From a virus, in IMG/VR virus record IMGVR_UViG_3300021197_001250, positions 1 to 20,625 of that record: DNA of 20,625 bases, one strand, 5' to 3'. The translations under genes were made by a program, and so were the position numbers. Under the pieces are notes generated by a model. That model was not told where the DNA came from, searched no databases, and worked only from the letters and a program-made list of their open reading frames with translations. Every line of letters starts with the position of its first letter. Position 1 is the stretch's first letter. Of this stretch, positions 2,631 through 20,625 are shown piece by piece.

Positions 2631-2633
2631 ATT

Positions 2634-4327: not shown

Positions 4328-4347
4328 ATAATTATCTTTTATAGTTA

Positions 4348-4375
4348 AGTAGCCACCCTATAAAGAGTGGCTACT
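4348..4375 (-). terminator. hairpin between two structural genes, possible weak terminator or processing site
   Basis: The minus strand can form a 9-base-pair stem (GTAGCCAC paired with GTGGCTAC plus one A-T pair) around a 10-base loop. It is followed by TTAACTAT, which is only partly T-rich. It sits in the 62-base gap after the 273-residue gene. It could be a partial terminator, an RNA-processing site or a 5' stabilising hairpin for the connector and tail message. Confidence 0.5.
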
Positions 4376-4389
4376 CTCCTATAAAGTAA

Positions 4390-5211: not shown

Positions 5212-5230
5212 GATATAATATAATAAAAAA

Positions 5231-5260
5231 TTAAAAAAAAGATCGGGGCCGAAGCCCCGA
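5231..5260 (-). terminator. strong rho-independent terminator after the major capsid gene
   Basis: On the minus strand a perfect 7-base-pair GC-rich stem (TCGGGGC, loop TTCG, GCCCCGA) is followed at once by eight T residues. The UUCG tetraloop is unusually stable. It starts 15 bases after the major capsid protein stop codon, in the direction of transcription. It should end or reduce transcription after the capsid gene and help keep capsid messages more abundant than the downstream connector and tail messages. Confidence 0.92.
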
Positions 5261-5274
5261 CCTAATAATTATGC

Positions 5275-6771: not shown

Positions 6772-6802
6772 AATAAATATGTTTTTAAGTTATGGAAGAA
6801 AA

Positions 6803-7927
6803 CTATTTCCTTCCTTTTTTTATTCTAACTTTAAAATCTGAAGAAGAATCGCCGCTCAATACCCTGTACTTAGTTCCACCAACTATAACTTCTTTGTTTG
6901 TTTGCCTAGGATCCATGTTAATGTTCTTAGACTTTTCAACAGAAGTTTTTAAAGCGTCAGCTTTACCTTGTTCATAGAAGTGATTAGCTATAGCATCAGC
7001 GTTCATAGCGGTATATAAACCTTTATGATAACCCGCTGCATCTTCTATTGATCCTTCTTTATTCAAAAACTTTTTGATAAAGTTACCAATATCGCTCTGG
7101 GTTTCTTTAACGCCATCAACGTCTTTAACATTAAACCTGTATTTCTTTTCCCCAACATTATATTCAAAACCTTTGAATTTTTCAGAAAATAATTTTTCAG
7201 TTTTACTATTAAACACGCTTTGAATCTTTTCGTTTTTTTGCTTGCTTACTTCAGACTCTTTGTTATATCGATTAAAAAAGTCCATAGCTTTCTTCGCCTC
7301 TGGCGGAAGCTTTGAACCAGCTTTAATCTCCTCGTAATATTTAGACTTTTGCCCGTCTAAGTAGGCTTTAGCCTCGGCAACTTGCTCTTTTAAGGCTATT
7401 TTTTTTCTTCTAATATCTTTTTCATCATCTAATTCTTCATCAAAAGAAAAGCTTTCATCCATTAAAAACTTTCTTTCTTCAGCGTCAAGATGAGGTTTTT
7501 TAACTTTGTAGTACTCTTCTAAGGCTGTTAGATTGTCCATCTCGCTGTAATCTTGATTTAGCTTAACGTAATCCTCAACTGTGCCACCTGTTTCTTTCAT
7601 AAACTCTACTAGCTTTTCTACGTTGTCTGGTAGACTTAGCTCTGGCACTTCTTCAATTGCAACCTCTTCAACTTGCTCTTGTTCTTCTTCTTCAGTAACT
7701 TCTTCTAGTACTGGCTGCTCTTGTGTTTCGTTTTCCGCCTGTACTTCTTCTTGTTCCGGTGCGGAGTCGGTAGCTTCATCGCCTCCAGCCACTCCTGCCT
7801 CGTCAACTCCACTTTCTTCAACATCTTCTTTTTTGTTTAAGTCCACCTTATGAACTGTTTCTTCTGGTTTCTTTTTCAAGCTTACCTTAGTTACGTTTTC
7901 TTCTTGTACTTCTTTTGTTTCTTCCAT
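6803..7927 (-). CDS. probable capsid scaffolding protein
   Basis: This 374-residue protein lies between the portal and major capsid genes, the usual place for a scaffold. It has an extremely acidic N-terminal third (about residues 35-100, with long Glu/Val/Gln runs), a central region of charged helices likely to form coiled coils (DDEKDIRRKKIALKEQVAEA and KKAMDFFNRYNKESEVSKQK), a small globular part near 245-330, and a basic C-terminus ending KVRIKKGRK. A basic C-terminal patch on an otherwise acidic helical protein is typical of scaffolds that bind the inside of capsid subunits. No protease motif is visible, so it is not evidently a protease-scaffold fusion. Role inferred from composition and position. 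Confidence 0.72.
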   Translation of the reverse strand: MEETKEVQEENVTKVSLKKKPEETVHKVDLNKKEDVEESGVDEAGVAGGDEATDSAPEQEEVQAENETQEQPVLEEVTEEEEQEQVEEVAIEEVPELSLPDNVEKLVEFMKETGGTVEDYVKLNQDYSEMDNLTALEEYYKVKKPHLDAEERKFLMDESFSFDEELDDEKDIRRKKIALKEQVAEAKAYLDGQKSKYYEEIKAGSKLPPEAKKAMDFFNRYNKESEVSKQKNEKIQSVFNSKTEKLFSEKFKGFEYNVGEKKYRFNVKDVDGVKETQSDIGNFIKKFLNKEGSIEDAAGYHKGLYTAMNADAIANHFYEQGKADALKTSVEKSKNINMDPRQTNKEVIVGGTKYRVLSGDSSSDFKVRIKKGRK

Positions 7928-7944
7928 AATATAAAATATAATAA

Positions 7945-10299
7945 TTAAAACTGATTCATATTCAAGCCAGTCCCTAATTCATCATTACCTGCTGACTCAA
8001 ACTTTTTACTCGCTGCTTGTTTTTGCTTTTTATCTTCAACCATACCCTTGCCTTCTGCCTCTAACGCTCTTAGTTTCATATTGTACTGAAACTCTGCTTC
8101 CATTAAGTCTTTCTTTATTTGAGCTTCTTGCTGTAGCGTCTTTGCTCTAAATTCTGCTTTAGCTTGCTCTAACTGTATTTGCGACTGAGTTAATGCTTGT
8201 TGCTTTTGTGTTTCAGCCTGTGCTTGAGCTTGTGCAGTTTGTTGTTGAGCTTGTTGTTGTGCTTGAATATTTTGTTGCTGCATCGCTTGGTCTTCTTTTA
8301 CTTTTTTCTTTTCTTTTATTTTAAGAAGTTCGTTAGCAAGCTTTACATTTTTAGTATTCCTTATGTCAATAGCGTCTGATAACTTTATTATCTTTTGAGC
8401 TAAAGCCATTTGAATATTGTTTTCTAGTAGTTGTCTTTCTTCTTCGTCAGGAGCTAGTTCAATGAATATACCAAAGTCATACAGATGTAGCTCTGACATT
8501 TCTTCTAATGTAGCCACGTTGTGAACACCGATCTGTTGTAGAAAAGCATCTCTTGTTGGCGAGTACTCTAGTACATCAGATATTCTTAGTGATAATTGTT
8601 CTGCTATATCAGCAGTTAAAAACAAACCAGCTTGTAGTATATGTCTTGTCGCGGTGTTACTATTAGCTGCTGCTAGTTTTTGAACACCTACCAAAGCGTT
8701 TCTATCAGGCGTGCTACCATCTCTAGCTTCGTTCAAACCGGTTACGTCACGGATCATCTGCATGTAGTAGTTGTAGTTTGCAATAAGAGTTTGCATCTTA
8801 CCACCAGCACCTTTACCGTTTGATATTTCTTGTATAGGTACCTTACCTGGGTTTGGATCACCATCTGCAGTATATGATCTACCAATAACAGAACCTGTTT
8901 GGAAGAACATGTTTAAAGCTTCCTGAGGATTATAGTTTGTACCATTGCCCAAATCTATTTCAGCCAAACCATCAGCGTCTAAGTATACGCCATCAGGAAC
9001 CATACGAGCCATAACTTGTTGTAGCTTCAAATGTGTAAGCTGTATCATATCAGCAAAGCCGGTAATACGACTTACTATGCTTTCTATTCTACCTTGGTAC
9101 ATACGCGGAGCAACAATACTATAGTTCATTTTAACTTTAGTCATGTCACTTTTAGATCGCATCATGTTCTCTGCCATCTCCCACTTAAGTAGTTTGTCAG
9201 AGCCAATTATTGTAGCTCCTTCATACAATACTTCAACCTGTCTTGATAGCTTAGCAAAGCCACCTTGCATATCTGTAGGTGGATCAAACTGATCGTCTTT
9301 TTCTATAGCTTTTTCTCCGCCACTACCAGTTTCTTTAAGCTTGTAAACTTCGTTCATGTAAGTCTTCCAGTTAAAGTATAAAACCTCAACTTGGTTTATA
9401 TCTTGATCTCTTCTACCTTTATTGTATTCGTAAGTTCTACTATTGTTGTATTGTTGTATTTCTTCTAAATCTTCGTTTGATAAATGAGGAAACTCTTTTA
9501 CAAGCTCATTTATAGGTACTGTTTTAACTTCTCCAATATAATAGACATCGTCAAAATAAGGAGACTCTGTGTAAGAATGTACCATCCTATCAGGATCAAC
9601 GTACTCTACTTTAACACCTTCAGATGTACTAAACGTTGTTTTTACAGAGGCCATACCTAAAACAGCTAGATCATAATAAAGTCTTTTTCTAGTTAGTTCG
9701 TAGTTATTTCCTTGTAGTAATACACTTATAGCTTGCTCTTCTGCTAACTCAGTAGCTTGCTTATATGTAAGTTGCATGTGAAGTTCTAGCTCTTGCTCTG
9801 TCTCTGGTAAAGTTTCAGGATCGTTTTCTGCTAGATCCATATTGAGTTGAGCTTTAGCCACGGCGTCAAACTCTTTCATTTTCATGTCTCTAAGTACACT
9901 CTCCATATACTCAGTTCTTTTTGCCACGCCGTATGGATCTTGAGAAAATACTTTTATGTCGTAGTTTCTTTCTGTCATACCGTTAACTACAATGTCTACA
10001 AACTTAGGTATAACAGGAACTGGTTTCCAGTCTAAGTTTAAGTAGCTCAAGTCACCATTTATAGAAAGCTCGTTTTTATATTTTTGCACAGACTGCTCGC
10101 CTCTAGCGTAAAGTCTTAGGTTATGAAAGTTGTTTTTATTGCTGTAAAATCTTCCGTTACCTCTTATGTTTCCGTCTTCGTTTCTATCAAACCATTCACC
10201 TTCAATAGCAAGCGCAACTTTTAAACCATAATCGTAGCTTATTTTTTCTACATCAGGTACTACCTGACTTGGAAAATTGTTTGTGTTTCTGTAAGCCAT
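7945..10299 (-). CDS. portal protein, crAss-like type
   Basis: The 784-residue product matches the size and gene order of crAss-like portals and follows the terminase large subunit with a 2-base gap. Portals form a twelve-fold ring at one capsid vertex and serve as the DNA channel and terminase docking site. Visible parts are an N-terminal wing region (LRLYARGEQS and VPVIPKFVDIVVNGM near residues 60-110), a central stem and clip region, a long helix-rich segment MIQLTHLKLQQVMARMVPDG near 430, and a conserved patch around residue 520 with RDVTGLNEARDGSTPDRNAL, common in these portals. The last 130 residues are a Gln/Ala-rich coiled coil (many QQQ and AQA units) that could form an extended barrel into the head, as in P22. 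The ATG follows AATTAAAT, an AT-only leader within the end of the terminase gene. Confidence 0.9.
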   Translation of the reverse strand: MAYRNTNNFPSQVVPDVEKISYDYGLKVALAIEGEWFDRNEDGNIRGNGRFYSNKNNFHNLRLYARGEQSVQKYKNELSINGDLSYLNLDWKPVPVIPKFVDIVVNGMTERNYDIKVFSQDPYGVAKRTEYMESVLRDMKMKEFDAVAKAQLNMDLAENDPETLPETEQELELHMQLTYKQATELAEEQAISVLLQGNNYELTRKRLYYDLAVLGMASVKTTFSTSEGVKVEYVDPDRMVHSYTESPYFDDVYYIGEVKTVPINELVKEFPHLSNEDLEEIQQYNNSRTYEYNKGRRDQDINQVEVLYFNWKTYMNEVYKLKETGSGGEKAIEKDDQFDPPTDMQGGFAKLSRQVEVLYEGATIIGSDKLLKWEMAENMMRSKSDMTKVKMNYSIVAPRMYQGRIESIVSRITGFADMIQLTHLKLQQVMARMVPDGVYLDADGLAEIDLGNGTNYNPQEALNMFFQTGSVIGRSYTADGDPNPGKVPIQEISNGKGAGGKMQTLIANYNYYMQMIRDVTGLNEARDGSTPDRNALVGVQKLAAANSNTATRHILQAGLFLTADIAEQLSLRISDVLEYSPTRDAFLQQIGVHNVATLEEMSELHLYDFGIFIELAPDEEERQLLENNIQMALAQKIIKLSDAIDIRNTKNVKLANELLKIKEKKKVKEDQAMQQQNIQAQQQAQQQTAQAQAQAETQKQQALTQSQIQLEQAKAEFRAKTLQQEAQIKKDLMEAEFQYNMKLRALEAEGKGMVEDKKQKQAASKKFESAGNDELGTGLNMNQF

Positions 10300-10301
10300 A
10301 T

Positions 10302-12521
10302 TTAATTTTTAATTATTTTAGAGGTTACACCATCGTTACTATATTTAGATAGCGAAAAGTTTAGTGGTTTTTTTTCTTTTACGTTAACAGGTCTATACAA
10401 ATGCCTATTGCAAGCCATTATTGCTAATCCAGAACTTATAGCAGCATCAAACTTAGTTCTTTTGTTTATATCAAACTTAGCCCAGTCGTTTAACGTTTCG
10501 TTAAAATACATTGTGCCAAAGCTACCATCACTCATCAAGCCAACGTGATCGTTGATGTACATCTCAATAGCGGCAGCGTGAGCTTGCTTAATGTCTTCAC
10601 TAGAGTTTGGAATACCACCAACTTCTTTTTCAGCCACAGAAAGCTTGTTCCAAATTTTGTCTGGCCTATTCATGCTAAATCCTCTATAGCCTCTTCGCTT
10701 GAGATGATAAAGTAATCTTGGTTTATTGTTCTCTGCTAATAACGGCATGCCATAAAAAACCAATGCCATTAGTATGTCTTCAAAAAATATTTCAGCGGTT
10801 TGTGGTCTTGCAATATATTCTAAAAAAAATGTATTAGCAGGAGCAGACTCCATGCTAAATTTAGTTAATCCATGAAGAGATCCGTTGGATCCTCTACCAT
10901 CCACTGTACCACTAATATCATAGCTATCGCAGCCAAAGGCGCCCATGTGTTCATTACCTGGATACTTAACTCCATTTTTTATTATTACATTGTTTTGTAA
11001 ATTAAAATCTGGAACCCAACTAAGCTTAAATCTACCGTTAGGATCTGGATTAAAAGTTACTACTGTATCTTTAACTCCATTGGCCCATTGAAAGTTTCCT
11101 GTGTTCAACACAGCAGAGCTACCTAAGCCATCATTATAATCTATTTGTTCGTACAATTTAACTAAGTTAAATATACTATTTTTTGTTTCATCTCTAAATG
11201 CATGCTCTTCAGTTCTTGGAAACTGACGATAAAATTCGTTCAAAGCATCTTGATCTCCTTTCAAACCTTCAACCTCATTTTCCCAATGCGAGACGACACC
11301 TACGTCTATTAGTTCGCCCTGTGGCCCTCGTACATCATGACTTGGGCTATCAAAAACAGGTTGTCCGTATTCGTCAATAAATCCTTCAAAGTTCCATTCC
11401 ATTGGGATAAACAAAGAATATAAACCAGACTTTGTTTGTCCATTACGGTTTCTGCTTGTAGCATCTGAATCATTGTAAAGCTTTTTAAAATTATCACCAC
11501 CTTTGTCTAACGAATTAGACGTTGACCCCATCATGCATTTACCAACTATACGAGCACCTAGCCTTAAACAAGTTTTAGTTACTCTCCAGTTGTTTAGAAT
11601 ATTATCAGGCCTTTCCCACTTACCACTTTCATCGTGTACTAGTAGATTAAGCTTTTCTCCATCATAGCTGTTATCGCCTGTGTTTTTCCAATCAATAGTA
11701 GTATCAAGTCCAACCAGCTCTTCCTGCTTTTCGTTTGCAGTAATTTTTTTACGCGTAAACTTACTTGCAGGAACCCTATAAGCAAGTTCACTCTTAGGTC
11801 TGTCCATACCGTCTTGTATCGGTTTAAAGAAAAACGGATAGTTGACAGATATTGGTACAACTTTATCGGTAAACATTTTTTTAGCATCAGCACCACTTTT
11901 TGATAGTATTCCATATCTAGCATCACTCGATATAGTAGCTAAGTTAACAGTCTCAGCCGAGCTCATAAAAGAAAAACCACTACGCCTATTCTTTAGATAA
12001 CACATGCCATAACACCTGCTGTCAGCTTTGCAAGCTTCCCAGAATATAAAGAACAGTCTGTTAGCCTCGCGAAAGTCTGGAGCTCCAACGTCTATTTTTG
12101 ACCATTGAAGATACATATAGTGGCTACCTGTTATATATGTAGATACACCGTTATTACTAAACCAAAAGCCTTGTTCACGATTTTTAAATTCATCATCAAT
12201 AAAATCGTACCACTTTTCTTTTGATTCTTCAGGGTAGCTTCTCCAGTCAAATATACTTTTTAATTTACCTAACTCTTTAGGGTACTCAAGCCTTTTCCAC
12301 TTGTTTAATTCATTGGAGTGCACTTGCACTGGTTCCAACGGCAAAGCAACTTGCAACCCTTGTATCTCAATGATCTCACCGATTTTACCAGTTTTTGATA
12401 TAACAATGATGTCATTTTCTTTATTGTATCCATATTCCCATTTACGTTTTTTGTTAAGTCGACTTATAGTAGTTCTCTTAACTGGTTCAATAATTTTATA
12501 TAGTGTTTGATTGTAACTCAT
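10302..12521 (-). CDS. terminase large subunit (packaging ATPase and nuclease)
   Basis: This 739-residue protein is the DNA-packaging motor. An N-terminal domain holds the ATPase: a lambda-like deviant Walker A, KNRRSGFS (residues 177-184), where the conserved Lys precedes the loop and the usual GK is GF; a Walker B LLVHDE (293-298, with catalytic Glu298); and a coupling motif MGSTS (331-335). A C-terminal RNase H-like nuclease follows, with metal-ligand candidates Asp532 in GAFGCDSYD, Glu568 in FFLEYIARP and Asp692 in KFDAAISSG. The protein would bind the portal, pump DNA into the prohead with ATP and cut the concatemer. Its start overlaps the stop of the 92-residue gene by four bases (ATGA), pointing to coupled translation. 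The length fits crAss-like terminases. Confidence 0.93.
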   Translation of the reverse strand: MSYNQTLYKIIEPVKRTTISRLNKKRKWEYGYNKENDIIVISKTGKIGEIIEIQGLQVALPLEPVQVHSNELNKWKRLEYPKELGKLKSIFDWRSYPEESKEKWYDFIDDEFKNREQGFWFSNNGVSTYITGSHYMYLQWSKIDVGAPDFREANRLFFIFWEACKADSRCYGMCYLKNRRSGFSFMSSAETVNLATISSDARYGILSKSGADAKKMFTDKVVPISVNYPFFFKPIQDGMDRPKSELAYRVPASKFTRKKITANEKQEELVGLDTTIDWKNTGDNSYDGEKLNLLVHDESGKWERPDNILNNWRVTKTCLRLGARIVGKCMMGSTSNSLDKGGDNFKKLYNDSDATSRNRNGQTKSGLYSLFIPMEWNFEGFIDEYGQPVFDSPSHDVRGPQGELIDVGVVSHWENEVEGLKGDQDALNEFYRQFPRTEEHAFRDETKNSIFNLVKLYEQIDYNDGLGSSAVLNTGNFQWANGVKDTVVTFNPDPNGRFKLSWVPDFNLQNNVIIKNGVKYPGNEHMGAFGCDSYDISGTVDGRGSNGSLHGLTKFSMESAPANTFFLEYIARPQTAEIFFEDILMALVFYGMPLLAENNKPRLLYHLKRRGYRGFSMNRPDKIWNKLSVAEKEVGGIPNSSEDIKQAHAAAIEMYINDHVGLMSDGSFGTMYFNETLNDWAKFDINKRTKFDAAISSGLAIMACNRHLYRPVNVKEKKPLNFSLSKYSNDGVTSKIIKN

Positions 12522-12796
12522 TTCGATCTGCCTTCCGCGAAGCCTTTGAATGCTCTGTTTTCTTTTTCTTCTTGTGTCTTTCCTTCCAGAATATTCTCTT
12601 CCTCTTGTATGCGGTTGAGTATTTCGAATGCATCAAATATAGCTAACTTTTTAGTAGCAGCAGCGTTCTTCAATCGATCAGTAGACACATCGTCCTCTGT
12701 GTTAGTTATAATTTGCTCTTGAGCAACTTTTATTAACTCATCAACAGCTTTACGCCCAGCTAGGATTATACGTTTCTTCGTTTCCTTTATGCTCAT
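12518..12796 (-). CDS. candidate terminase small subunit or small conserved phage protein
   Basis: The 92-residue, mainly helical protein (KKRIILAGRKAVDELIKVAQ, then a stretch with LKNAAATKKLAIFDAFEILN) lies just before the terminase large subunit and overlaps its start by four bases. Small terminase subunits are short helical DNA-binding proteins in this position, so that is the best guess. I do not see an unmistakable helix-turn-helix, and the family is not certain. The ATG at 12796 follows ACAATTAAAT, the typical AT-only leader of this genome, which supports this start although it lies 47 bases inside the upstream 189-residue gene in another frame. A short helical DNA-mimic or accessory protein is an alternative. 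Confidence 0.6.
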   Translation of the reverse strand: MSIKETKKRIILAGRKAVDELIKVAQEQIITNTEDDVSTDRLKNAAATKKLAIFDAFEILNRIQEEENILEGKTQEEKENRAFKGFAEGRSK

Positions 12797-13319
12797 ATTT
12801 AATTGTAATAAATTTATTCATGACCCTATAAAGCCTTTTACCTTCTACTATAAATTCGTATTGAGAAAAAGGAGTGTATCCTACTACTTCTCCAGGTTTA
12901 TAAGTACCATCACTATATACTATCACACCTTTTGATTGGTGTTCTTTGCTTTCGTCGTAATTATCTTCACTAGTCAAAGGCTGGACAAACGAGTACCCAG
13001 GCATAGCCTTGTCTTTACATAAGAATACTTGATCAGGTGAAACTATATATTTTCCTTCTTTGAAGTAAGCTCTGCTGTTTTTTTCTTCTCCGTGCACGTT
13101 GTGCCATCTTCTGAATACGTTGTGGTGGACGATGACTTCGTCTCCAGGTGATATATCGTAATCCCCAACAATAGGGCAAGAGATAACAGTAGCTCTACGG
13201 TTAACATACTCATGGTTATACACTTCAGTGTTTAGTATTAGCTTTTTATCACCTAAAGATTTAGAGTTGTTGTATCTTTCTCCCGCTGGAGACACTACAA
13301 AACAATAAGGACTTTTCAT
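12750..13319 (-). CDS. divergent Cpn10/GroES-like protein with duplicated C-terminal half
   Basis: I read this 189-residue protein as a distant co-chaperonin. Residues 5-100 follow the GroES plan: an opening strand, a loop with a hydrophobic tripeptide GDKKLIL (23-29) where the mobile loop should be, a strand RRATVISCP, then SPGDEVIVHHN (57-67) matching the conserved VGDIVIF region, and DQVFL matching the closing strand. An insert (about 68-90) is longer than in GroES. Residues 129-175 (SKGVIVYSDG, KPGEVVGYTP, YEFIVEGKRLYRVMNKFITI) look like a second copy of the C-terminal GroES strands. The fold call is from pattern reading and could be wrong; a plain phage beta-barrel protein is the alternative. 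The start shares one base with the upstream stop (TAATG), and the 3' end overlaps the next gene by 47 bases. Confidence 0.6.
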   Translation of the reverse strand: MKSPYCFVVSPAGERYNNSKSLGDKKLILNTEVYNHEYVNRRATVISCPIVGDYDISPGDEVIVHHNVFRRWHNVHGEEKNSRAYFKEGKYIVSPDQVFLCKDKAMPGYSFVQPLTSEDNYDESKEHQSKGVIVYSDGTYKPGEVVGYTPFSQYEFIVEGKRLYRVMNKFITIKYEHKGNEETYNPSWA

Positions 13320-13549
13320 TAATACTCTAGATTATATTCAATAGATATAGCCATGTTCTTATTGAAGTCTTTCCAAGGTAAAACTGTTTTACCTTTTCTA
13401 ATGTATATAGAATACTTTTCGTCTTCTTCTAGAATATCGCAGATAGTATGCCCTCCATAGACCTCTTGGCCTACGGAGTAATGCATAGCATCTATTTTGT
13501 AGTCTTTACCTATCGTTATTTTTCTTATCAGCTTCGTTGTTATCATCAT
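13319..13549 (-). CDS. small conserved phage protein, unknown function
   Basis: The protein is small (76 residues from the ATG at 13549; 75 from the adjacent ATG at 13546) and I do not recognise its family. It is beta-rich, with MHYSVGQEVYGGHTICDILE and a lysine-rich turn before KTVLPWKDFNKNMAISIEYN. The frame is open further upstream to a TTG at 13573, but the ATG pair follows ACAATTAAATACA, the same AT-only leader seen before other genes, so I favour an ATG start. It overlaps the 3' end of the coiled-coil gene by 44 bases in another frame and hands over to the 189-residue gene with a 1-base TAATG overlap. The tight packing implies co-translation with the chaperonin-like gene. Confidence 0.6.
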   Translation of the reverse strand: MMITTKLIRKITIGKDYKIDAMHYSVGQEVYGGHTICDILEEDEKYSIYIRKGKTVLPWKDFNKNMAISIEYNLEY

Positions 13550-13811
13550 TGTATTTAATTGTACCGTCAGCAATATTTACATCGTCTGTACCGTATTGTT
13601 TTTTAAATTCTTTTTGAAGTTCTTGAATGACTTGCTGCATTTGGATTATAGCATGAAGAGCCTCGTGCTTTCGAGTTTCTATTGCACCTATATCCATTTG
13701 AGCTTTGTTTATTGAAGTGACTACCTCTCTCATCCTAGAGAGTTGTTCGTCTGTAATTTTTTCTGCACGAGCTTTTAGCTCCACAGTTTTTGGAGTTTTT
13801 CTTTTTGCCAT
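13506..13811 (-). CDS. coiled-coil protein, unknown function
   Basis: The 101-residue product starts with a basic stretch (MAKRKTPKTVELKARAEKIT) and then forms a long amphipathic helix (about residues 20-72) with heptad-like spacing of Ile, Leu, Met and Val, suggesting a coiled coil or helical hairpin. The C-terminus is hydrophilic (NDDNNEADKKNNDR) and is probably disordered; it coincides with the overlap with the next gene. No known motif is visible. The leader is three AAATT units running straight into ATGGC, with no Shine-Dalgarno. Its place between virion and chaperonin-like genes suggests an assembly role, but nothing specific can be claimed. Confidence 0.65.
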   Translation of the reverse strand: MAKRKTPKTVELKARAEKITDEQLSRMREVVTSINKAQMDIGAIETRKHEALHAIIQMQQVIQELQKEFKKQYGTDDVNIADGTIKYNDDNNEADKKNNDR

Positions 13812-13826
13812 AATTTAATTTAATTT
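13812..13826. repeat. tandem AATTT repeat in a gene leader
   Basis: Three perfect AATTT units lie immediately before the start of the 101-residue gene. A related three-unit AAATT tract lies before groEL (18387-18401). These are AT-only leaders that may keep the start codon unpaired. Confidence 0.7.
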
Positions 13827-13839
13827 AAGTTAATTGTTT

Positions 13840-14598
13840 TTATTTTTCCCAGCTAAATATACATTTAATGGGGCTTAAGTGTACTATTTCATCGCCCGAA
13901 GCAATAGCACCTACGTTGTTGGACTCTAGGACAATCGCCGAATCCGTCACGCTTAACACGGTGCCTATAGCTGTGTTAACATCGTGTATGTGTACTATGT
14001 CTCCTTTTACAAAAAACTTGTTAGGAGCCACGCCAGACGTACCTATTGACGCTGTAGTGTCGTCACTGTGCGCACCTGAGGCTGTTGTGTTCGTAGAAAA
14101 GTTATACGCAAAGTTTTGATGACCAACACAACAAACGTAAATCTTATCGTACCCAACGTTTTGTCCGTACTGAGGGCTGCTTTCCACTACGATGCTAGCC
14201 ATTTGATCCGCGGAAGCACCAGCACCCATGCTGTATACGTCCATGAAGTCTAATCTGTTTTTCACAGCTGTATCATCTAATACAACAGCGCCTATTACAT
14301 TTTCGAAATATCCAACTCCATCTGCCGTAGCGTTAGGCGTTCCTATAGAAGAAGGAGCTGTACCGTCAGCATTAGGCTTAGCAAAAAATAACTGCATAGC
14401 CCCAGCTGTGTGTGTACCTCTTAGCATAACGTTAATATCAGTAAGTTTAGCCGCGCCCCTTGGTAACTGCATCTCTTGCCAATCAAATAGTACGTCTCCT
14501 GCTGCGAAAGCTAAATCAGTTTTGTTAGATTGTATAATTTGCGCTACGTCTGTAAACGCTGGTTTAATTTCTGTTGTAAAAAATTTACTAACTGCCAT
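13840..14598 (-). CDS. probable virion (capsid-surface or decoration type) protein
   Basis: The 252-residue protein resembles a family of beta-rich proteins found in many marine phage structural clusters. It shows LPRGAAKLTDINVMLRGTHT, a segment LQ or FAKPNADGTAPSSIG around residues 70-85, YFENVIGAVVLDDTAVKNRL, and VGYDKIYVCCVGHQNFAYNF near residues 148-167. A C-terminal domain (about 190-250) contains FVKGDIVHIHDV and IVLESN, typical of small beta-barrel domains that bind virion surfaces. I infer a head decoration or head-fibre-like role; the sequence does not prove it. Its start lies one base past the holin stop codon, so the two are likely co-translated. The AT-rich leader lacks a Shine-Dalgarno. 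Confidence 0.6.
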   Translation of the reverse strand: MAVSKFFTTEIKPAFTDVAQIIQSNKTDLAFAAGDVLFDWQEMQLPRGAAKLTDINVMLRGTHTAGAMQLFFAKPNADGTAPSSIGTPNATADGVGYFENVIGAVVLDDTAVKNRLDFMDVYSMGAGASADQMASIVVESSPQYGQNVGYDKIYVCCVGHQNFAYNFSTNTTASGAHSDDTTASIGTSGVAPNKFFVKGDIVHIHDVNTAIGTVLSVTDSAIVLESNNVGAIASGDEIVHLSPIKCIFSWEK

Positions 14599-14599
14599 T

Positions 14600-15022
14600 T
14601 TATTTTTCTTTTACTTGTTCGTTTTTCTTTGAACTTCCACCGAAGAAGAAGTCTATTATTGTATTTACCTTAGCACTCATGGCGCCAAATATAGTCGATA
14701 TAAAGCTTATTTCAAATTCACCCAAGTCTATTGACTTTGTAACAAAATAATTAAACATTACAAATGTAATACCAAAATAAGCTACAGTAAATAACGTTGC
14801 TAGAACCTTTTGAATAATAGCATCGTCTTTATACATATCACGTGCAGACTTGCGATCTTCAACTTCTTTCGCAAAAGCTTCACGCTCTGCTTCAAGCATT
14901 ATTGATTTTAACGCTAGCTTAGCTTCATCTCTCTCTTTGTCAGTTGTAATTACTTTATCAAGTATTCCTTCCGCGTTATCTAATACTTTACCGAATAAAC
15001 CTCCTACTAAGTTACTTATCAT
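14600..15022 (-). CDS. holin, GTA-type 3TM family
   Basis: This 140-residue protein has the layout of the 3TM holins first described in gene transfer agents (PF11351 type). An N-terminal amphipathic segment (MISNLVGGLFGKVL) is followed by a long charged helix (about 28-62), a first clear membrane segment at residues 72-95 (VLATLFTVAYFGITFVMFNY), a second hydrophobic segment at about 104-118 (ISFISTIFGAMSA), and a final short FFFGGSSKK motif near the C-terminus, characteristic of the family. Holins open the inner membrane to release the lysis enzyme at the end of infection. No endolysin gene is recognisable nearby except possibly the small metallopeptidase-like protein two genes upstream. The start overlaps the preceding stop by one base (TAATG). 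Confidence 0.8.
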   Translation of the reverse strand: MISNLVGGLFGKVLDNAEGILDKVITTDKERDEAKLALKSIMLEAEREAFAKEVEDRKSARDMYKDDAIIQKVLATLFTVAYFGITFVMFNYFVTKSIDLGEFEISFISTIFGAMSAKVNTIIDFFFGGSSKKNEQVKEK

Positions 15023-15318
15023 TACCTACCGGTTTTTAAATTCTTTAGCTTACTTCGAAGTTGCTCTACCTTTTTTTTACCTTCAGCTTCAGATATTCTC
15101 TCATTCTCTATGTCAAAACTAGTTTCTTCAATCATAGACTCAAGTTGATTTTCTTGCTCTATACTTTTATGTTTTTGTTGCGTACTAACAGGGCCTATAT
15201 CTCCTTTTGCTACAGGTCCAGCAACTTGATCTTCCATATCTTTTTCGTGATCAACGTGTTTTTTCTTTAAAGCCGGGGCAACTGTGTCGTTACCCGGTCT
15301 TTCCATTTTAAATGCCAT
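15022..15318 (-). CDS. small charged helical protein, unknown function
   Basis: The 98-residue protein begins MAFKMERPGN and is very hydrophilic, with a likely long C-terminal helix (ENQLESMIEETSFDIENERI, then EAEGKKKVEQLRSKLKNL) that may coil. A TTG five codons further upstream extends the frame, but I chose the ATG at 15318, four bases after the stop of the metallopeptidase-like gene, because it begins MAFK like that upstream protein (MAFKL) and follows a compact gap. It overlaps the holin start by one base. It has no recognisable family. Position before the holin suggests a late, perhaps virion-linked role, as inference. Confidence 0.6.
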   Translation of the reverse strand: MAFKMERPGNDTVAPALKKKHVDHEKDMEDQVAGPVAKGDIGPVSTQQKHKSIEQENQLESMIEETSFDIENERISEAEGKKKVEQLRSKLKNLKTGR

Positions 15319-15322
15319 AGTT

Positions 15323-15691
15323 TTAGTCTTCAAATTCCCAAGGTAATTCTATATCTCCTTCTGGATACATCTCACCTTCGTAGTTAATATAACCGTCTTT
15401 TCTTTCGTACTTACCACCATCCCAATAAACATAGTCATCGTCATAATCTACTCTACCGAGTTTCATGTGGACTATATGTTTCATCTCATGCTGTAGTACT
15501 CTGTTGTATTGCTCACTATCTTTTTCTATATCACTGCTGATATATATAAGACCTTCTTTGTGAGCTTCACCCATAACTCCTTCGTCTAAGTCTTTGAACT
15601 CAACTCTAATACCACCAACCATATTTTTGTTACCACCTATGGTTAGCTTGTTATCAGTATTACCTCTTCTACTACCTAGTTTAAAAGCCAT
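15323..15691 (-). CDS. small HExxH metallopeptidase-like protein
   Basis: The 122-residue protein carries HEMKH (residues 68-72), a match to the HExxH zinc-binding and catalytic motif, preceded by a helix (SEQYNRVLQ). A third metal ligand is not certain; His75 or an Asp in the following DYDDDY stretch could serve. The C-terminal part repeats beta-hairpin units with YWDGGKYER and YINYEGEMYPEGD, suggesting a small zincin-like or anti-parallel fold. It could be a peptidase that processes virion proteins or cell-wall peptides, or a domain that only binds zinc. It starts MAFKL, shared with the next gene. Its start shares one base with the stop of the winged-helix gene, so they are coupled. Confidence 0.6.
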   Translation of the reverse strand: MAFKLGSRRGNTDNKLTIGGNKNMVGGIRVEFKDLDEGVMGEAHKEGLIYISSDIEKDSEQYNRVLQHEMKHIVHMKLGRVDYDDDYVYWDGGKYERKDGYINYEGEMYPEGDIELPWEFED

Positions 15692-16131
15692 TATCTGTTT
15701 GGGTCTTTTATCATATCGTCAATAGCTTTATTGTAAACTTTATCAGTATATGATTTGTTATTATAGAATACGCTTCGATCTGATACTGGTAAATCTTCTT
15801 CTCCGAGTAAGATGCGATATATTCTACTTATAAGTTGGCTGCATTTAAAAGAGGTTTTGAAGACGCTGTATTTAATCGTTGTTCGATTTCGATGACGCCA
15901 GACCTCTATCCAGCCTAGTTTTCTTAGTTTATCCCACCGAGTTTTATCCCAGCTCATGGTATAAGTACCATCAATAAATTCTTGTCTTGTAAACCGTTTT
16001 TGACAATCTAAAAATATTAGAAGTTCAAGATCGGCATCTGTTAACCCGTAAGTCTTACAAGCCCACTTTCTAGTGAGCCTGTAATACTTTAGGATTTGTA
16101 ATTCACGTAAATCGTGACTAGTTAGTCGCAC
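15691..16131 (-). CDS. winged-helix (MarR-like) DNA-binding protein, candidate late-gene regulator
   Basis: The 146-residue protein follows the MarR winged-helix plan: an N-terminal helix (LRELQILKYYRLTRKW), TDADLELLIFLDCQKRFTRQ as the helix before the reader helix, SWDKTRWDKLRKLGWIEVWR as the recognition helix, and a basic wing WRHRNRTTIKYSVF, then a helix (CSQLISRIYRILLGEEDLP) that could dimerise. No ligand pocket can be identified. It is the only transcription-factor-like protein in the window and may modulate late transcription, or bind DNA ends in packaging. The start is a GTG at 16131, directly after two stop codons (TAATAAG) of the upstream gene; an alternative ATG start is not available nearby. 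Function is inferred from the fold. Confidence 0.6.
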   Translation of the reverse strand: MRLTSHDLRELQILKYYRLTRKWACKTYGLTDADLELLIFLDCQKRFTRQEFIDGTYTMSWDKTRWDKLRKLGWIEVWRHRNRTTIKYSVFKTSFKCSQLISRIYRILLGEEDLPVSDRSVFYNNKSYTDKVYNKAIDDMIKDPNR

Positions 16132-16134
16132 TTA

Positions 16135-16494
16135 TTACGATGCGTCAACTACTGCTAATGAAGCACAAGCTGTAATATCCGCGTGTAAAAACTTAGAGTT
16201 TTCACTGTCAGCCACAACGATAAACGGAGTGTTGATAGCGCTAGCAGCAGCGCAAGCTCCAGTTATAGCTTCCATAACTTCTTTATGCTTACCAGTGTTT
16301 ACAGTAAGAACTACAACCGGTAAATCTATACCTGAGTCATCATCCGCTTCTTGGCCAGAGTTAAAGTAAGCTCTAAGCGTAGTCGCGTTGTGCATCTCAA
16401 GGTGAGATAGTTTGTCAGTAGGAAAGCAAGCTACTTGCTCGGTGCTTGTTGTTGCATCAGGAGCGCCGGATGCAAAATACAAAAATTTTTTCAT
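16135..16494 (-). CDS. small virion-type protein (candidate head decoration protein)
   Basis: This 119-residue protein starts MKKFLYFASGAPDATTST and contains HNATTLRAYFNSGQEADDDS, LPVVVLTVNTGKHKEVMEAI and a C-terminal HADITACASLAV. I recognise this as a type found repeatedly in marine phage structural regions, where the first strand, alternating strands with an acidic loop and final helix resemble small virion-surface proteins. A function is not known to me; capsid decoration is the leading guess. It follows groES across an AT-only 76-base gap, the largest untranslated gap in the window, which may carry its own promoter, consistent with strong late expression. Its start follows AAATTTAAAA. 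Confidence 0.55.
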   Translation of the reverse strand: MKKFLYFASGAPDATTSTEQVACFPTDKLSHLEMHNATTLRAYFNSGQEADDDSGIDLPVVVLTVNTGKHKEVMEAITGACAAASAINTPFIVVADSENSKFLHADITACASLAVVDAS

Positions 16495-16570
16495 TTTTAA
16501 ATTTTTTTAATGATTAATAATTAATTTGTTTTAGATTTTTTGTTTGTGGGTTTTGGTTTATAGTTTACGT
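16495..16570 (-). promoter_or_regulatory. AT-only leader between groES and the 119-residue gene
   Basis: This is the largest gap between genes in the window. It holds no GC stem. It contains the near-palindrome TTAATTATTAA and A-rich stretches, which could be a promoter or an unstructured leader. I see no -35/-10 pair or Bacteroidota TAnnTTTG box, so assignment to a promoter is weak. Confidence 0.3.
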
Positions 16571-16828
16571 TTAATCTACTAGTACAATATCACTTGACTT
16601 TATAACAAAATAAAACTTATCTTCAAATTCTATTCCGTGGCCAGCGTGGCGATCATACCATACGATATCGTTTTCTTTTATTACTTCAACTAAATTACCT
16701 GCAGATATGATCTTACCTTTGAAGTACCTTATCTCTTCGTCTTTAGTTTCGTCTAATATTAAACCGCTTTTTGTTTTCTTGTTTTCTTTTATTCTATCTA
16801 CTACTACGTAGTGGTTAACTGCTTTCAT
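16571..16828 (-). CDS. groES: GroES-type co-chaperonin (phage-encoded)
   Basis: The 85-residue product matches Cpn10: a first strand [10 protein letters not shown], a mobile loop KKTKSGLILDETKD with the hydrophobic LIL triplet (23-25) that binds the GroEL apical domain, the strand FKGKIISAGN, the conserved END IVWYD (52-59) for GroES GDIVIF, an HGIEFED stretch (64-70) and the closing strand KSSDIVLVD. The roof loop is shortened: about 15 residues run from FKG to the IVWY strand where E. coli has many more, so the dome is likely open or reduced. It overlaps groEL by 14 bases and is translated right after it. It probably caps the co-encoded GroEL or the host chaperonin during capsid or tail folding. 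Confidence 0.88.
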   Translation of the reverse strand: MKAVNHYVVVDRIKENKKTKSGLILDETKDEEIRYFKGKIISAGNLVEVIKENDIVWYDRHAGHGIEFEDKFYFVIKSSDIVLVD

Positions 16829-18380
16829 TTACACGTATGTTTGAGATTACACAATCAGCTGATATAATAGTTGATACTACACTAACAGCATTTTTCAGCG
16901 CCGATTTTGTAACCAAAACCGGATCTATAATACCTGACTCAACCATATTAACTTCTTCGCCAGTAACTACGTTCACGCCCACGCCAGTATCTTCAGGGTA
17001 GCCTGATGCTTCGAACCCAGCGTTAGACATTATTACATTGAAAGGAGACTTAATAGCGTTAAGCATTATCTCTTCACCCACGTTAGTGGGTTCGATTTTT
17101 TGAGAAGCGTTAAGCAATGCTATACCTCCACCTGGTACTATACCTTCTTTGAGGGCAGCTTTTGTAGCGTATATCGCATCTTCGACCCTGTCTTTCTTTT
17201 CTTTAAGCTCAACCTTAGAGTTTGCCCCAACACGGATAATTCCAACACTACCAGATAACATAGACAGTCTTTGTTCCAACTTCTTTTTAAGGAAAGTATT
17301 TTTTTCATCTGCAACTAATTTAGCAACTTGATCTATTCTTTCACCTACAGCCTCTGTGTCTGACTCTAGAGTTATAACAGTGTTCTTGTCGTCAGTCTCA
17401 GCGTACTCTGCTTCACCTAAATCTTCAGGCGTCATGACATCTAAGTCATCTCCTAGTTCTTCATTGAATAGCGTAGCGCCTGTTAGTATAGCTAAGTCTT
17501 CACAAGAGTCTAGCTTAGTAGGTCCAAAGCCAGGTAGGTCTACAATGTTTATTTTTATATTGCCTTTGACCTTGTTCATTAACAACGCAGACCTTACTTG
17601 TTGAGATACTGGAGCTACTATAAGTAAAGATCTGTTTTGCTTTATAACATGTTCTAGTATACCTTGTATTTTTCTTACGTTAGGTATTTCAGATGTACAT
17701 ATCAATACCAAAGGATTATCAAGTTCTGCTTTTTGTTTATCAGTGTTAGTAACAAAGTGAGGTGAAGTTAGTCCACAGTCAAATTGTATACCATCTACAG
17801 TCTCAACATAAGTCTCGTCTGTCTCTGATCCTTCCATAAGTACAACTCCGTCCTTACCTACTACAGTATAAGCTTCAGATATAATAGATCCTAAGGATTT
17901 ATCGTTGTTACAGCTTATAGAAGCTACGTGAGAAAGCATGTCGTCACTAACGTCTATCTTTATGGATTCTAAATAATCTACAACTTTGGTAAGACCTGAC
18001 TGTAAACCTTGCTTAAGTTCTCTTATAGTAGCTTTGTCCATAGAATTATAGACATGTGTAAGCAATGATTCAGCTAAAACAGTCGCTGTTGTAGTACCAT
18101 CACCCGCTTCTCGCACTGTATTGCTTGCAGCTTCTTTGATAAGCGTAGCTCCAATGTTTTCCACAGGGTCAAATAACACTACAGACTGCGCTACAGTAAC
18201 GCCGTCTTTAGTAATAACAGGGTTTCCTCGTGCATCTTCGTAAATTACACATTTACCAGAGGCACCAAGGGTAGATTTTACTGCTTTTGCCAGTTTGTTC
18301 ACGCCAGATATGACGCGATTTTTTGCTTCATCGCCAAAATTTAAGTCTTTGACGATCTCGCTAGGGAGATTGTATTCCAT
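16815..18380 (-). CDS. groEL: GroEL-type chaperonin (phage-encoded)
   Basis: This 521-residue Cpn60 keeps the ATPase core: TKDG (57-60), [10 protein letters not shown] (93-102, with Asp94 for E. coli Asp87), [17 protein letters not shown] (398-414, with Asp401 for Asp398) and PGGG (416-419). The apical domain is full-length and ends with PGFGPTK. It differs from E. coli at peptide and GroES-binding positions: Tyr199 is Leu, Tyr203 is His, Leu234 is Gln, Leu259 is Arg, Val263 is Leu and Val264 is Met, while Phe204 and Leu237 are kept. It ends near NIRVNESS and lacks the GGM-repeat tail. It is expected to fold phage virion proteins with GroES. The gene precedes groES, the reverse of the bacterial order, and has a leader of three AATTT units. 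Confidence 0.95.
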
Positions 18381-18386
18381 TATAGT

Positions 18387-18401
18387 AAATTAAATTAAAT
18401 T
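18387..18401. repeat. tandem AAATT repeat in the groEL leader
   Basis: Three AAATT units (AATTT on the coding strand) lie just upstream of the groEL start, between it and the 98-residue gene. Its AT-only composition fits the Shine-Dalgarno-less starts elsewhere in the window. Confidence 0.7.
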
Positions 18402-18406
18402 ATTGC

Positions 18407-18703
18407 TTATTTGTCGAAAGTTTTTACAACTGTAGGGCCTTTCGTTGCCTCTAATTTCTTAGTAAAGTGCTCAACGCTGCCGTCAACGGCTTGTTCTGCG
18501 CCTTCTAAAGTTTCTCTACGCGTAACGTCAGACCATTTTTCTGCGTCATCAGGGTTATTAACCTCTGTTTGGTAGTAACCGTTAGGTAATTGGGTTATTC
18601 GCCAGTTTCTTTTGTCTGCAAGGTGTTCCCATTGGCCCTTGGTTTTTTCGTTTACTTGTGGATCGTTGGTCCACGTGCTTGTTTTGTAATACAAATACGT
18701 CAT
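18407..18703 (-). CDS. small conserved phage protein, unknown function
   Basis: The 98-residue product (MTYLYYKTSTWTNDPQVNEK, WEHLADKRNWRITQLPNGYY, QTEVNNPDDAEKWSDV, then a helical C-terminus with LEGAEQAVDGSVEHFTKKLE) has no family I can name with confidence. It has several Trp and Tyr in the first half and a likely small beta sheet, followed by helix. It lies 26 bases before groEL and 48 bases after the 62-residue gene. A phage virion-linked or host-takeover role is equally possible. Confidence 0.6.
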   Translation of the reverse strand: MTYLYYKTSTWTNDPQVNEKTKGQWEHLADKRNWRITQLPNGYYQTEVNNPDDAEKWSDVTRRETLEGAEQAVDGSVEHFTKKLEATKGPTVVKTFDK

Positions 18704-18751
18704 TTTGGTTTATGTATTGGTTAATAATTAGTTTATGGTAGTATAGTCACC
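18704..18751 (-). promoter_or_regulatory. AT-rich gap upstream of the 98-residue gene and groEL
   Basis: A 48-base AT-rich gap precedes the 98-residue gene and, after it, groEL. I see no clear promoter boxes and no hairpin. It is one of only a few gaps wide enough for a promoter. Confidence 0.25.
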
Positions 18752-18940
18752 TTAAATTCCCATGAATTTACCAAGCATACCGCCAAGTTTAGTGTTTTTC
18801 ATCTTATCTACCGCTCCAGGAGCTATAGCTTGTGCTGCTTTACCTACTAATCCCATGCCTGGCATAAATTTAGTTGGCGTTTTACCGTGATCTACTCCAG
18901 GTAGTGTGCTGTATCTTTTCTTAATGTTCTTTAATCCCAT
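18752..18940 (-). CDS. small Gly/Lys-rich basic protein, unknown function
   Basis: A 62-residue basic protein with MGLKNIKKRYSTLPGVDHGK at the N-terminus and a C-terminus with GMGLVGKAAQAIAPGAVDKM and LGGMLGKFMGI that looks like an amphipathic, glycine-rich, possibly membrane-active or DNA-binding segment. I recognise no family. It follows the 71-residue gene with a four-base gap and ends just before an AT-rich gap. Candidate roles are an internal virion protein or membrane-acting peptide; these are guesses. Confidence 0.55.
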   Translation of the reverse strand: MGLKNIKKRYSTLPGVDHGKTPTKFMPGMGLVGKAAQAIAPGAVDKMKNTKLGGMLGKFMGI

Positions 18941-18944
18941 AGTT

Positions 18945-19160
18945 TTATGATTTATCTCGTTCTATATTCATGTCTTTATCCTCTAATCGATTAGCTGCTT
19001 GATCCATTGGATTATATTTTTCACTTTCCGTAGGAGCATAGTTCTGTGTTGGTGCAGGTTTTATATCTCCACCAAAATAACCATCAATTACTTGCCTTGT
19101 TTTTTTTAAGCAGCTAGAGCGCTTACGCCTTTTGCCATGCATTGTTCTTCTACTTTTCAT
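18945..19160 (-). CDS. small protein with highly basic N-terminus, unknown function
   Basis: The 71-residue product starts with an Arg/Lys-rich stretch (MKSRRTMHGKRRKRSSCLKK) and continues as a hydrophilic, likely disordered tail (PTQNYAPTESEKYNPMDQAA). It may bind nucleic acid through the basic N-terminus. Its ATG shares one base with the stop of the 400-residue gene (TAATG), so translation is coupled. No family is recognised. Confidence 0.6.
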   Translation of the reverse strand: MKSRRTMHGKRRKRSSCLKKTRQVIDGYFGGDIKPAPTQNYAPTESEKYNPMDQAANRLEDKDMNIERDKS

Positions 19161-20362
19161 TATCTATTTTTTCTAAATGACATTGGCTTACCAAAGTTCT
19201 TTATCATGCTAGATTGTCCTTTTGAAGATTTAAACTGAGTTACTGTCTCTGGACTTTCTTCTTGACTAGCCTCAACTTCGGGTTTTGGCAGCTGGAAACG
19301 TTGTATTGAATTATCACCACCACCTTTGTAACTTCCAAACTGTCCGAAGTCTTGACCTACAAAATTACCATCAGGGTCTAAATTCATCATCTTATTGCTT
19401 TCTCCGCCAGCTCCTCCAACCTTGCCTTGCGTTGGATCAGCATCTTGCATCTTGCTGTAATCCTGTTGAAGATTTACAGCTTGAAGCGTACCTTTTTGAT
19501 CACCAATACCATACATAGACATAGAATCTGGATTAGCATCAGCAAATTGGCTAACAGTCATATTATTGTACTGCACTTCGTTGTCGTCTGTCATTCCTAC
19601 AGGAACCTGTATAGCTTGATTTAAAGATGGTTCTGTGTAGCCCATACCTTGAATCATAGCTTTCCTATTTTTAAATTCTCCCATATAAGCGCTATTGCTA
19701 TTTGGGTTGAACTGTTTACCTTTCCCAAGCGTAAAACCTGATGATTCACTTCCTTTTAGCTCAGGTGCAAATTTAGCAATAGGTTGACCGTAGTAAGGCT
19801 GTCCACTTTCGTTTACTAAAAGACCGTCTTCATTTTTTTGTGCGTTCTGCATTAAAGAACTATAAGGAATCAAGTCTTTAGTTTCAGGGTCAATAACATT
19901 AAAATCACCTCGTACACCAGTAGCTGTGCTTATGTCAACTTTTCTTGGCATCTGTAGATTAGCTTTCTGGGTTTTTTTCTCAGTTTCTATTTCCGTCTCT
20001 ACAGTTTCATCTGGCGTTGTGTTTTTATCATGCCACGCTTCTGCTTCTTTTTTAAAGTTGTCAATGCTGCCGAACTTTGCCTTTTCTTTTTCAGATAAAT
20101 TATCCCAAGCATCTTCGTACCCAGGACCTTTACCTCTAGTGGTTTCACCTGGTTTAGTACTTGTTGCGGTAGACTTTATTATTTCTGTTAGAGTTCTAAC
20201 GCCTTTCACTTTGTCGCTACCCACACCTCTTCTTCTTCTTGTAGTTGTAGCTTCATTATCGTTTTTAAGAGCTGACATACGTAAAGCAACAGCATCTTCT
20301 ATCATTTTATTAAGCGGTCCACTATACATGGACATGCTTCTATTCTTTAGTCTTTTTGCCAT
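19160..20362 (-). CDS. large low-complexity phage protein, possible internal virion protein
   Basis: This 400-residue protein is rich in Gly, Asn, Gln, Ser, Lys and Met. The N-terminus is basic (MAKRLKNRSMSMYSGPLNKM, then TTTRRRRGVGSDKVKG). A central part is charged and predicted helical (KEKAKFGSIDNFKKEAEAWH, VETEIETEKKTQKANLQMPR), followed by a long Asn/Gln/Ser/Gly-rich region and a basic C-terminus (MIKNFGKPMSFRKNR). I recognise no domain. The composition, with basic ends and a disordered middle, fits a DNA-associated or ejected virion protein, but this is inferred from composition alone. The start is 3 bases from the upstream gene's stop. Confidence 0.6.
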   Translation of the reverse strand: MAKRLKNRSMSMYSGPLNKMIEDAVALRMSALKNDNEATTTRRRRGVGSDKVKGVRTLTEIIKSTATSTKPGETTRGKGPGYEDAWDNLSEKEKAKFGSIDNFKKEAEAWHDKNTTPDETVETEIETEKKTQKANLQMPRKVDISTATGVRGDFNVIDPETKDLIPYSSLMQNAQKNEDGLLVNESGQPYYGQPIAKFAPELKGSESSGFTLGKGKQFNPNSNSAYMGEFKNRKAMIQGMGYTEPSLNQAIQVPVGMTDDNEVQYNNMTVSQFADANPDSMSMYGIGDQKGTLQAVNLQQDYSKMQDADPTQGKVGGAGGESNKMMNLDPDGNFVGQDFGQFGSYKGGGDNSIQRFQLPKPEVEASQEESPETVTQFKSSKGQSSMIKNFGKPMSFRKNR

Positions 20363-20364
20363 AT

Positions 20365-20553
20365 TTATTTTTCGTTAGGAAAAGGATTGTAAACTTTTTC
20401 TTTTAGCTTAGCGTATCTTTTAGTATCAGTCTTACCTTTAGCCTCAAGCCTTCTTAAACGCTTTAGCTTTTTCATTTGTTTTTTCTCTCTACGTTCTTCT
20501 TTCTTGTTATCAGGATCGTTGAAGAATAAAGGACCATTCATTTTATATGTCAT
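20365..20553 (-). CDS. very basic small protein, unknown function
   Basis: A 62-residue protein with MTYKMNGPLFFNDPDNKKEE followed by a Lys/Arg/Glu-rich, helical central part (KKLKRLRRLEAKGK) and a short ending VYNPFPNEK. Charge is strongly positive. It could be a DNA-binding or virion-linked peptide. It is the first gene of the transcription unit in the window, 72 bases from the right edge. Its N-terminus (MTYKM, then a Pro) resembles the MAFKM and MAFKL starts of two other small proteins here. No family recognised. Confidence 0.55.
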   Translation of the reverse strand: MTYKMNGPLFFNDPDNKKEERREKKQMKKLKRLRRLEAKGKTDTKRYAKLKEKVYNPFPNEK

Positions 20554-20625
20554 GACTATAGTATCACTTAAAAAAGTACATTATAAATATAGGGGTAAAG
20601 TGTTGCCCCCCTACCCCCCTCCCCT
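20554..20625 (-). promoter_or_regulatory. leader of the transcription unit with G-rich tract and TATAAT-like box
   Basis: This 72-base gap lies before the first gene and is cut by the window edge. On the coding strand it reads a G4-A-G6-TA-G6 tract (20606-20624), then CAACACTTTACCCC, then TATATTTATAATG, which contains an exact TATAAT and a near match (TATATTTA) to the Bacteroidota TAnnTTTG box. No convincing -33/-35 partner is present. Plus-strand bases 20592-20609 can pair GGGGTAA with TTGCCCC. It may hold a promoter or the terminator of an upstream gene. Confidence 0.35.

Follow-up and report, generated by a model that had tools for sequence, protein, structure and literature searches.

To our knowledge, promoter codes are known for few Bacteroidetes phages. 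Some phages encode a sigma factor for their late promoters, for example T4, with gp55 and TATAAATA. On the side of the hosts, the promoters of Bacteroidetes differ from those of E. coli (PMC6847099). Those served by the primary sigma factor are described in PMC6847099 and PMC9723704 by a -33 TTTG and a -7 TANNTTTG, refined to TAHHTTTG (PMC9723704 also gives the -7 box), with 4-5 nt from TAHHTTTG to the start (PMC6847099). Quadruplex motifs have been surveyed in viruses (PMC8036883). We recognised no description of the element reported below in the open-licence literature on G-quadruplexes and other G-rich elements, on late promoters and sigma factors, or on phages of Bacteroidetes, as judged by titles and the openings of abstracts.

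The DNA analysed here (hereafter the window) is a stretch of 20,625 nucleotides from a virus, IMG/VR record IMGVR_UViG_3300021197_001250. A comparison of eight of its proteins with PHROGs identifies it as the late arm of a tailed phage, with terminase, portal, virion proteins, and GroEL; it covers late genes only. These genes form a late (structural) operon that lies entirely on one strand (3..20553, minus). The operon opens with an ORF of 62 aa (20365..20553, minus), 26 nt after the predicted transcription start described below, and continues with an ORF of 400 aa that has no match in PHROGs (19160..20362, minus). The terminase matches 87 named phage records (68 of Flavobacterium, 15 of Cellulophaga, 2 of Tenacibaculum, 1 of Maribacter, and 1 unassigned), the nearest at 64% (MW202828.1, from a spring metagenome) and 45% (Elemovirus), and the host probably belongs to the Flavobacteriia. 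A near-identity search of named phages with the last 8.6 kb of the window returned none. The last 261 bases, searched in distant mode, matched 26 records, the lowest E-value among the 20 listed being 0.3, which is at the level of chance.

The earlier note on this DNA had singled out a striking coding-strand G tract, beside a TATAAT-like box, at the head of the transcription unit, and this description was borne out. The tract (G4-A-G6-TA-G6, 20606..20624) is exact in composition and position on the minus strand, where 20606-20625 reads A-G4-A-G6-TA-G6, followed by CAACACTTTACCCCTATATTTATAATG. The three overlapping occurrences of GGGGNNNGGGG in the window are all within the tract, against a mean of 0.09 and a maximum of 1 in 100 dinucleotide shuffles. 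The record is exactly 20,625 bases long, so the tract is the literal end of the contig and is cut by it. This position, together with a final base that differs from that of a relative (A instead of G on the minus strand), had made an assembly artefact conceivable. However, the related record IMGVR_UViG_3300017720_000024 (35,002 bp, L004/L005), whose GroEL is 99% identical and whose DNA is 96-97% identical across the alignable parts of the last 2.6 kb, carries the tract internally, as GTGGGAGGTGGGGGAGGGGGGTAGGGGGGCAACACTTTACCCC, and continues upstream with further G runs; related tracts are found in many other records. Because this record runs through it, the tract is real and only its last base is doubtful. 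The artefact reading, to which we give practically no credence, is thus refuted for everything but that base, which should not be trusted. A second contig (9,002 bp, L002/L123) stops right at the tract, and a search of the viral contig collection for the exact tract gave no matches. Run lengths obtained from short reads may be off by one.

The relatives of the tract define a conserved element. We studied 80 GroEL-related loci, the best 80 of at least 598, with an nhmmer profile seeded with 11 elements, and found one copy in each of 54 loci (searched strand, E up to 1); with both strands and E up to 10, there were matches in 55 loci and a weak second match in L015. The alignment comprises 40 of the 54 loci, and all counts out of 40 given here are flattered by the 14 loci left out of it, namely five near-identical copies (L007, L009, L034, L037, L053) and nine short or weak matches (L002, L014, L016, L017, L051, L061, L062, L063, L081). 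The conserved part is an ungapped core of about 30 nt, GGGGCWACACT-N-TACYCC-WATATTTATAAY, which ends in a pyrimidine-purine step and has a G-biased flank upstream. From GGGG to the predicted start, all 40 sequences align without a gap. The GGGG of the window (20606..20609, minus) occupies predicted positions -30 to -27, where G is found in 40, 40, 37, and 39 of the 40 aligned relatives. The six columns that follow are C in 34, A or T in 40, A in 32, C in 39, A in 33, and C in 39. Further on, ATATTT is matched in 39, 33, 40, 38, 38, and 40 sequences, the next two A in 39 each, and the terminal pyrimidine and purine in 40 each. The window has here a -7-like box, TATATTTA (20584..20591, minus), which is the host consensus TAHHTTTG with its last G replaced, and the predicted transcription start (20579..20579, minus), which coincides with the pyrimidine-purine step in 40/40 relatives. 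The first ATG lies 14-175 nt downstream of this start across the alignment. Some relatives outside the alignment lack the GGGG (L014, L017, L046) and others have a different -7 box (L061, L063, L081). A second block, GG-GGGG-CTGGGT-A-rich-TTTTG, is found about 50 nt further upstream of the element.

This core is specific in sequence and position. The putative late-promoter core of the window, GGGGGCAACACTTTACCCCTATATTTATAATG (20579..20610, minus), has a profile score of 50.1 bits, the next best in the window being -5.3. When each genome was left out of its own profile, the scores were 44.2, 43.0, 41.3, and 50.1 bits for G002, G004, G009, and the window, and the next-best scores were 2.8, -5.5, -0.8, and -5.3. 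The profile exceeds 20 bits in 48 of 79 loci, many of the others ending before the element. In 31 loci the sequence reaches 4 kb or more beyond GroEL on the upstream side; 27 of these exceed this score, in every case on the GroEL strand and upstream of the gene. Scans of whole contigs gave exactly one copy in 14 of 15. The remaining one (G010, 68 kb) encodes the sigma factor described below and had no element in the scan; it ends 1.3 kb upstream of GroEL, which is within the range of element-to-GroEL distances (663-3850 bp), and its element may therefore simply have been cut off. RNAalifold found no conserved pairs over the element, a search of four loci against Rfam gave no match, and single-strand DNA folds were unremarkable (-5.3 kcal/mol at the window end, with 12 of 200 shuffles as good; z of 0.27 in L004 and -1.41 in L008). 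With no conserved fold, and with the tract upstream of the predicted start, the terminator considered in the earlier note is unlikely. The strict late-core pattern had no exact match in the genome contigs collection, so this pattern gave no sign of prophages, and with two mismatches allowed, the numbers of matches outside the element were like those of a reversed control. In the available stretches of two named relatives, the best late score was 6.3 bits and the early pattern described below had no match.

The position of the element in the genome is best seen in three contigs whose ends overlap, by 98 bp at 100% (G004), 134 bp at 97.8% (G009), and 2054 bp at 91.5% (G002), and which are therefore near-complete genomes, permuted or circular, of about 64-67 kb. 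The ORFs of at least 60 aa in G004 form two opposed arms, a late one of about 47 kb and an early one of about 17 kb, with the element at the sole point of divergence. The same layout is seen in G002 and G009, except for isolated short ORFs and, close to one contig end, a run of small ORFs that the ORF list does not assign clearly to a strand. The element lies between the late and the early arm in all three. Ten proteins of G002 were examined, and those from the early arm include a DNA ligase, a sigma-70-family factor, an exonuclease, a primase-helicase, a thymidylate synthase, MazG, and a ribonucleotide reductase. No tRNAs were found in four pieces of this genome.

A second motif family, TACGR-N9-GATAATA..TATG, faces the late element on the opposite strand. 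Its form TACGR-N9-GATAATATATATG is present in 27 of the 36 loci with enough sequence, with a spacing of 9 in each, and has no copy on the other strand of that stretch. Since we derived the motif by visual inspection of the best matches, its test lies in the genome counts. G002, G004, and G009 have seven spacing-9 copies each, every one within the early arm and on that arm's strand, whereas 20 dinucleotide shuffles of each gave means of 0.1, 0, and 0. Other spacings from 5 to 14 gave 2, 2, and 1 matches, one of these in the early arm. Of the 80 GroEL loci, near-identical ones included, 38 have the spacing-9 motif, with 134 copies on the early strand against a single one on the late strand. The nearest early copy points away from the late operon, its GATA box being 129-244 bp from the predicted late start. 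When counted from the similar AT-rich -7 box, TACGR is at -31..-27 and the late GGGG at -30..-27. The -7 boxes of the two families differ at -5, with G in 24/27 early and 8/40 late copies. The strict host -7 consensus was found on the early side of 6 out of 36 loci, with 2.9 expected. The early motif often reads AATACGACT (L004:5640-5660 region and the early arms of G002, G004, and G009). This resembles the start of the T7 promoter, a likeness that is probably a coincidence.

The late element lies directly upstream of the late genes in the right orientation, has two boxes at fixed spacing that are unlike those of the early family, and occurs in relatives whose genomes encode a sigma factor. 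It has G at -5 in only 8/40 sequences, where the host primary sigma factor would expect TAHHTTTG. From these comparisons, we consider it quite probable, if not highly so, that the element is a promoter. We read the GGGG as a promoter box mainly because the two motif families of one genome set different boxes, TACGR and GGGG, at the same place. The tract itself is likely to be the class-specific upstream box, with its flank, of the single late promoter of the phage, facing the early promoters across the divergence point. Promoter control, one of several functions suggested in the earlier note, is thus the best reading of the tract.

The sigma gene is found in all nine virus contigs above 60 kb, in none of the six shorter contigs, and in neither of the two named relatives. 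The phage protein, of the sigma-70 family, has regions 2 and 4, and its region 2 is closest to sigma-28 (FliA; E 1e-11). That this factor reads the GGGG element seems to us an evenly balanced proposition. In the mechanism that we propose, both motif families would act as promoters, and the host RNA polymerase, carrying its primary sigma factor, would read the early one. The sigma-70-family protein would then be made from the early arm and would redirect the host polymerase to the lone GGGG promoter, so starting the late operon of about 47 kb. Further upstream (about -55 to -31), the additional G runs would be a G-biased flank, which in some lineages might fold into a quadruplex within the supercoiled stretch that separates the divergent promoters. 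The CTGGnnnCCAG-like palindrome at the flank position in other lineages would be as expected of a protein-binding site.

Other sequences near these genes may also be regulatory. A dispersed dyad of about 45 bp, GTGACAnTAGCCTATTA-N-TAGTAACAGGCTAnTGTCAC, occurs at L042:802-846, L019:1558-1602, L004:5024-5069, L134:840-882, and elsewhere, none of these copies being in the window. With a strict pattern, 20 of 40 loci have a copy that begins 10-46 nt past the predicted late start, and with a looser one 26; the dyad is also upstream of the sigma gene in 9/9 sigma loci. The inner positions of its arms are often unpaired, which suggests an operator in DNA and not a hairpin in RNA. Directly upstream of the sigma gene, an ORF of 212 aa (L132:3584-4222) has a weak match to HTH_11, below the cut-off of Pfam, and a copy of the dyad (L132:3547-3590) overlaps its start; its product is a candidate autoregulated switch protein.

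How far do other readings account for these observations? The earlier note had pointed to a possible G-quadruplex, and a DNA quadruplex controlling the late promoter could be the conserved function of the element. Motifs with four runs of at least three G and loops of 1-7 are strongly enriched, being present in 13 of the 40 elements, including that of the closest relative (L004), and only twice in the remaining 543,018 bp of the same loci (both strands), both times in L072. The 25 nt or so upstream of the core, a stretch that starts at -54 to -58 in bases depending on the row, have 46% G and 11% C, with G exceeding C in 38/40. However, 27 of the 40 elements lack the motif and near-invariance is limited to the GGGG, such that, of the conservation that the earlier note had proposed to check in related phages, the core of about 30 nt with its GGGG is kept and the four-run motif is not. 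At the position of the G runs, some loci (e.g., L042, L073, L078, L084) show by eye a palindrome like CTGG-nnn-CCAG. Pairing with the TACCCC downstream could also give a hairpin in a single strand, but this was no better than shuffles. The quadruplex potential therefore stands for this lineage and 13 of the aligned relatives and falls as a general function: it is possible as a lineage-specific trait, the G runs having apparently been gained repeatedly or kept in divergent lineages, and very unlikely as the conserved role of the element. Neither promoter transcribes the tract in our model, and any quadruplex would therefore act in DNA. The two motifs outside the elements, found in locus L072 alone (L072:5958 and L072:6044), are like GGGATAGGG and lie on the upstream side of its element, at a distance of a few hundred bases. 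The fullest version of the scheme can be advanced only as a long shot: phages of an uncultured lineage that probably infect Flavobacteriia would use a code of two promoter classes, in which the phage sigma would read a GGGG box unlike the known Bacteroidetes -33 element, and in which recurrently expanded upstream G runs, placed between the divergent early and late promoters, would act as a quadruplex switch sensitive to supercoiling.

The strongest competitor accepts the late promoter and assigns it to other proteins: another phage activator would bind GGGG-CWACACT, the host primary sigma factor would read the degenerate -7 box, and the phage sigma factor would serve other promoters, such as the TACGR-GATAATA family. 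The host TAHHTTTG is nearly matched by the late -7 box, and the palindrome that replaces the G runs in some loci also favours such an activator. The phage sigma factor might read the early family instead, because its region 2 is nearest to sigma-28 and the GATAA of the early motif resembles the sigma-28 -10 box. This is less likely because the factor would then be needed at the start of infection, before its own synthesis. Moreover, 32/40 late elements lack the G at -5, which hardly varies in the host, and the fixed spacing from the box to -7 fits a contact with sigma. We regard this arrangement as possible and somewhat doubtful. The divergent intergenic region, G tract included, could also be a replication origin, opened at the G-rich strand or bound by an initiator, with promoter activity in addition. 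The single copy per genome at the junction of the arms suits an origin, as does the GC skew of G002, which changes sign at the element and at the point of convergence. Yet the two arms are unequal (about 47 and 17 kb) and the skew tracks their coding strand; this accounts for the sign changes, which therefore require no role of replication. The intergenic regions of L004 and L008 have no iteron array, and the fixed spacing and start-like step are those of a promoter. An origin is, in our view, unlikely. Least plausible of these, with only a slight chance of being right, is the packaging site or physical genome end suggested by the window and L123 stopping inside or at the tract, and by the many contigs that end within about 4 kb upstream of GroEL. 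Of the 15 contigs scanned, 14 contain the element internally, the self-overlaps of G002, G004, and G009 (2054, 98, and 134 bp) are far from it, and L123 is the only one of 40 contigs found by motif that ends at the tract. The packaging or end-type site of the earlier note is thus not supported. Among the 80 GroEL loci, more than half of the contigs stop in the 5 kb that precede GroEL, and hardly any stop downstream of it. This clustering was rejected as a packaging signal, the ends being scattered over kilobases, and it is probably due to a bias in the recognition of virus contigs combined with a variable region of small genes.

We thus return to the late promoter. An oddity at the end of a contig has become a testable regulatory map of diverse uncultured phages, with one putative late promoter and, in three genomes, seven early ones per genome, and a candidate sigma factor. 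An orthogonal pair of sigma factor and promoter would be useful in Bacteroidetes hosts. The elements also suggest that quadruplex-prone DNA can arise by the elaboration of a short protein-contact box. In terms of what is known, the comparison made from sequence points to a new sequence class of putative phage late promoter, whose G-rich flank is unusual. It shares with promoter G-quadruplex elements the short-loop G runs beside a promoter in 13/40 members, but the motif is not family-wide and the tract is transcribed by neither predicted promoter. As for the late promoters of the T4 gp55 type, there is a sigma gene in the early arm and a distinct putative promoter for the late genes; in contrast, there is one per genome rather than many, the upstream G-box is at a fixed spacing, and the link between sigma factor and promoter is a predicted one. 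Finally, relative to the primary-sigma promoters of Bacteroidetes, the late element has an AT-rich -7 box of like shape and a predicted start 4 nt beyond it, as in many host promoters, whereas it has GGGGCWACAC in place of the -33 TTTG and G at -5 in only 8 of 40 members.
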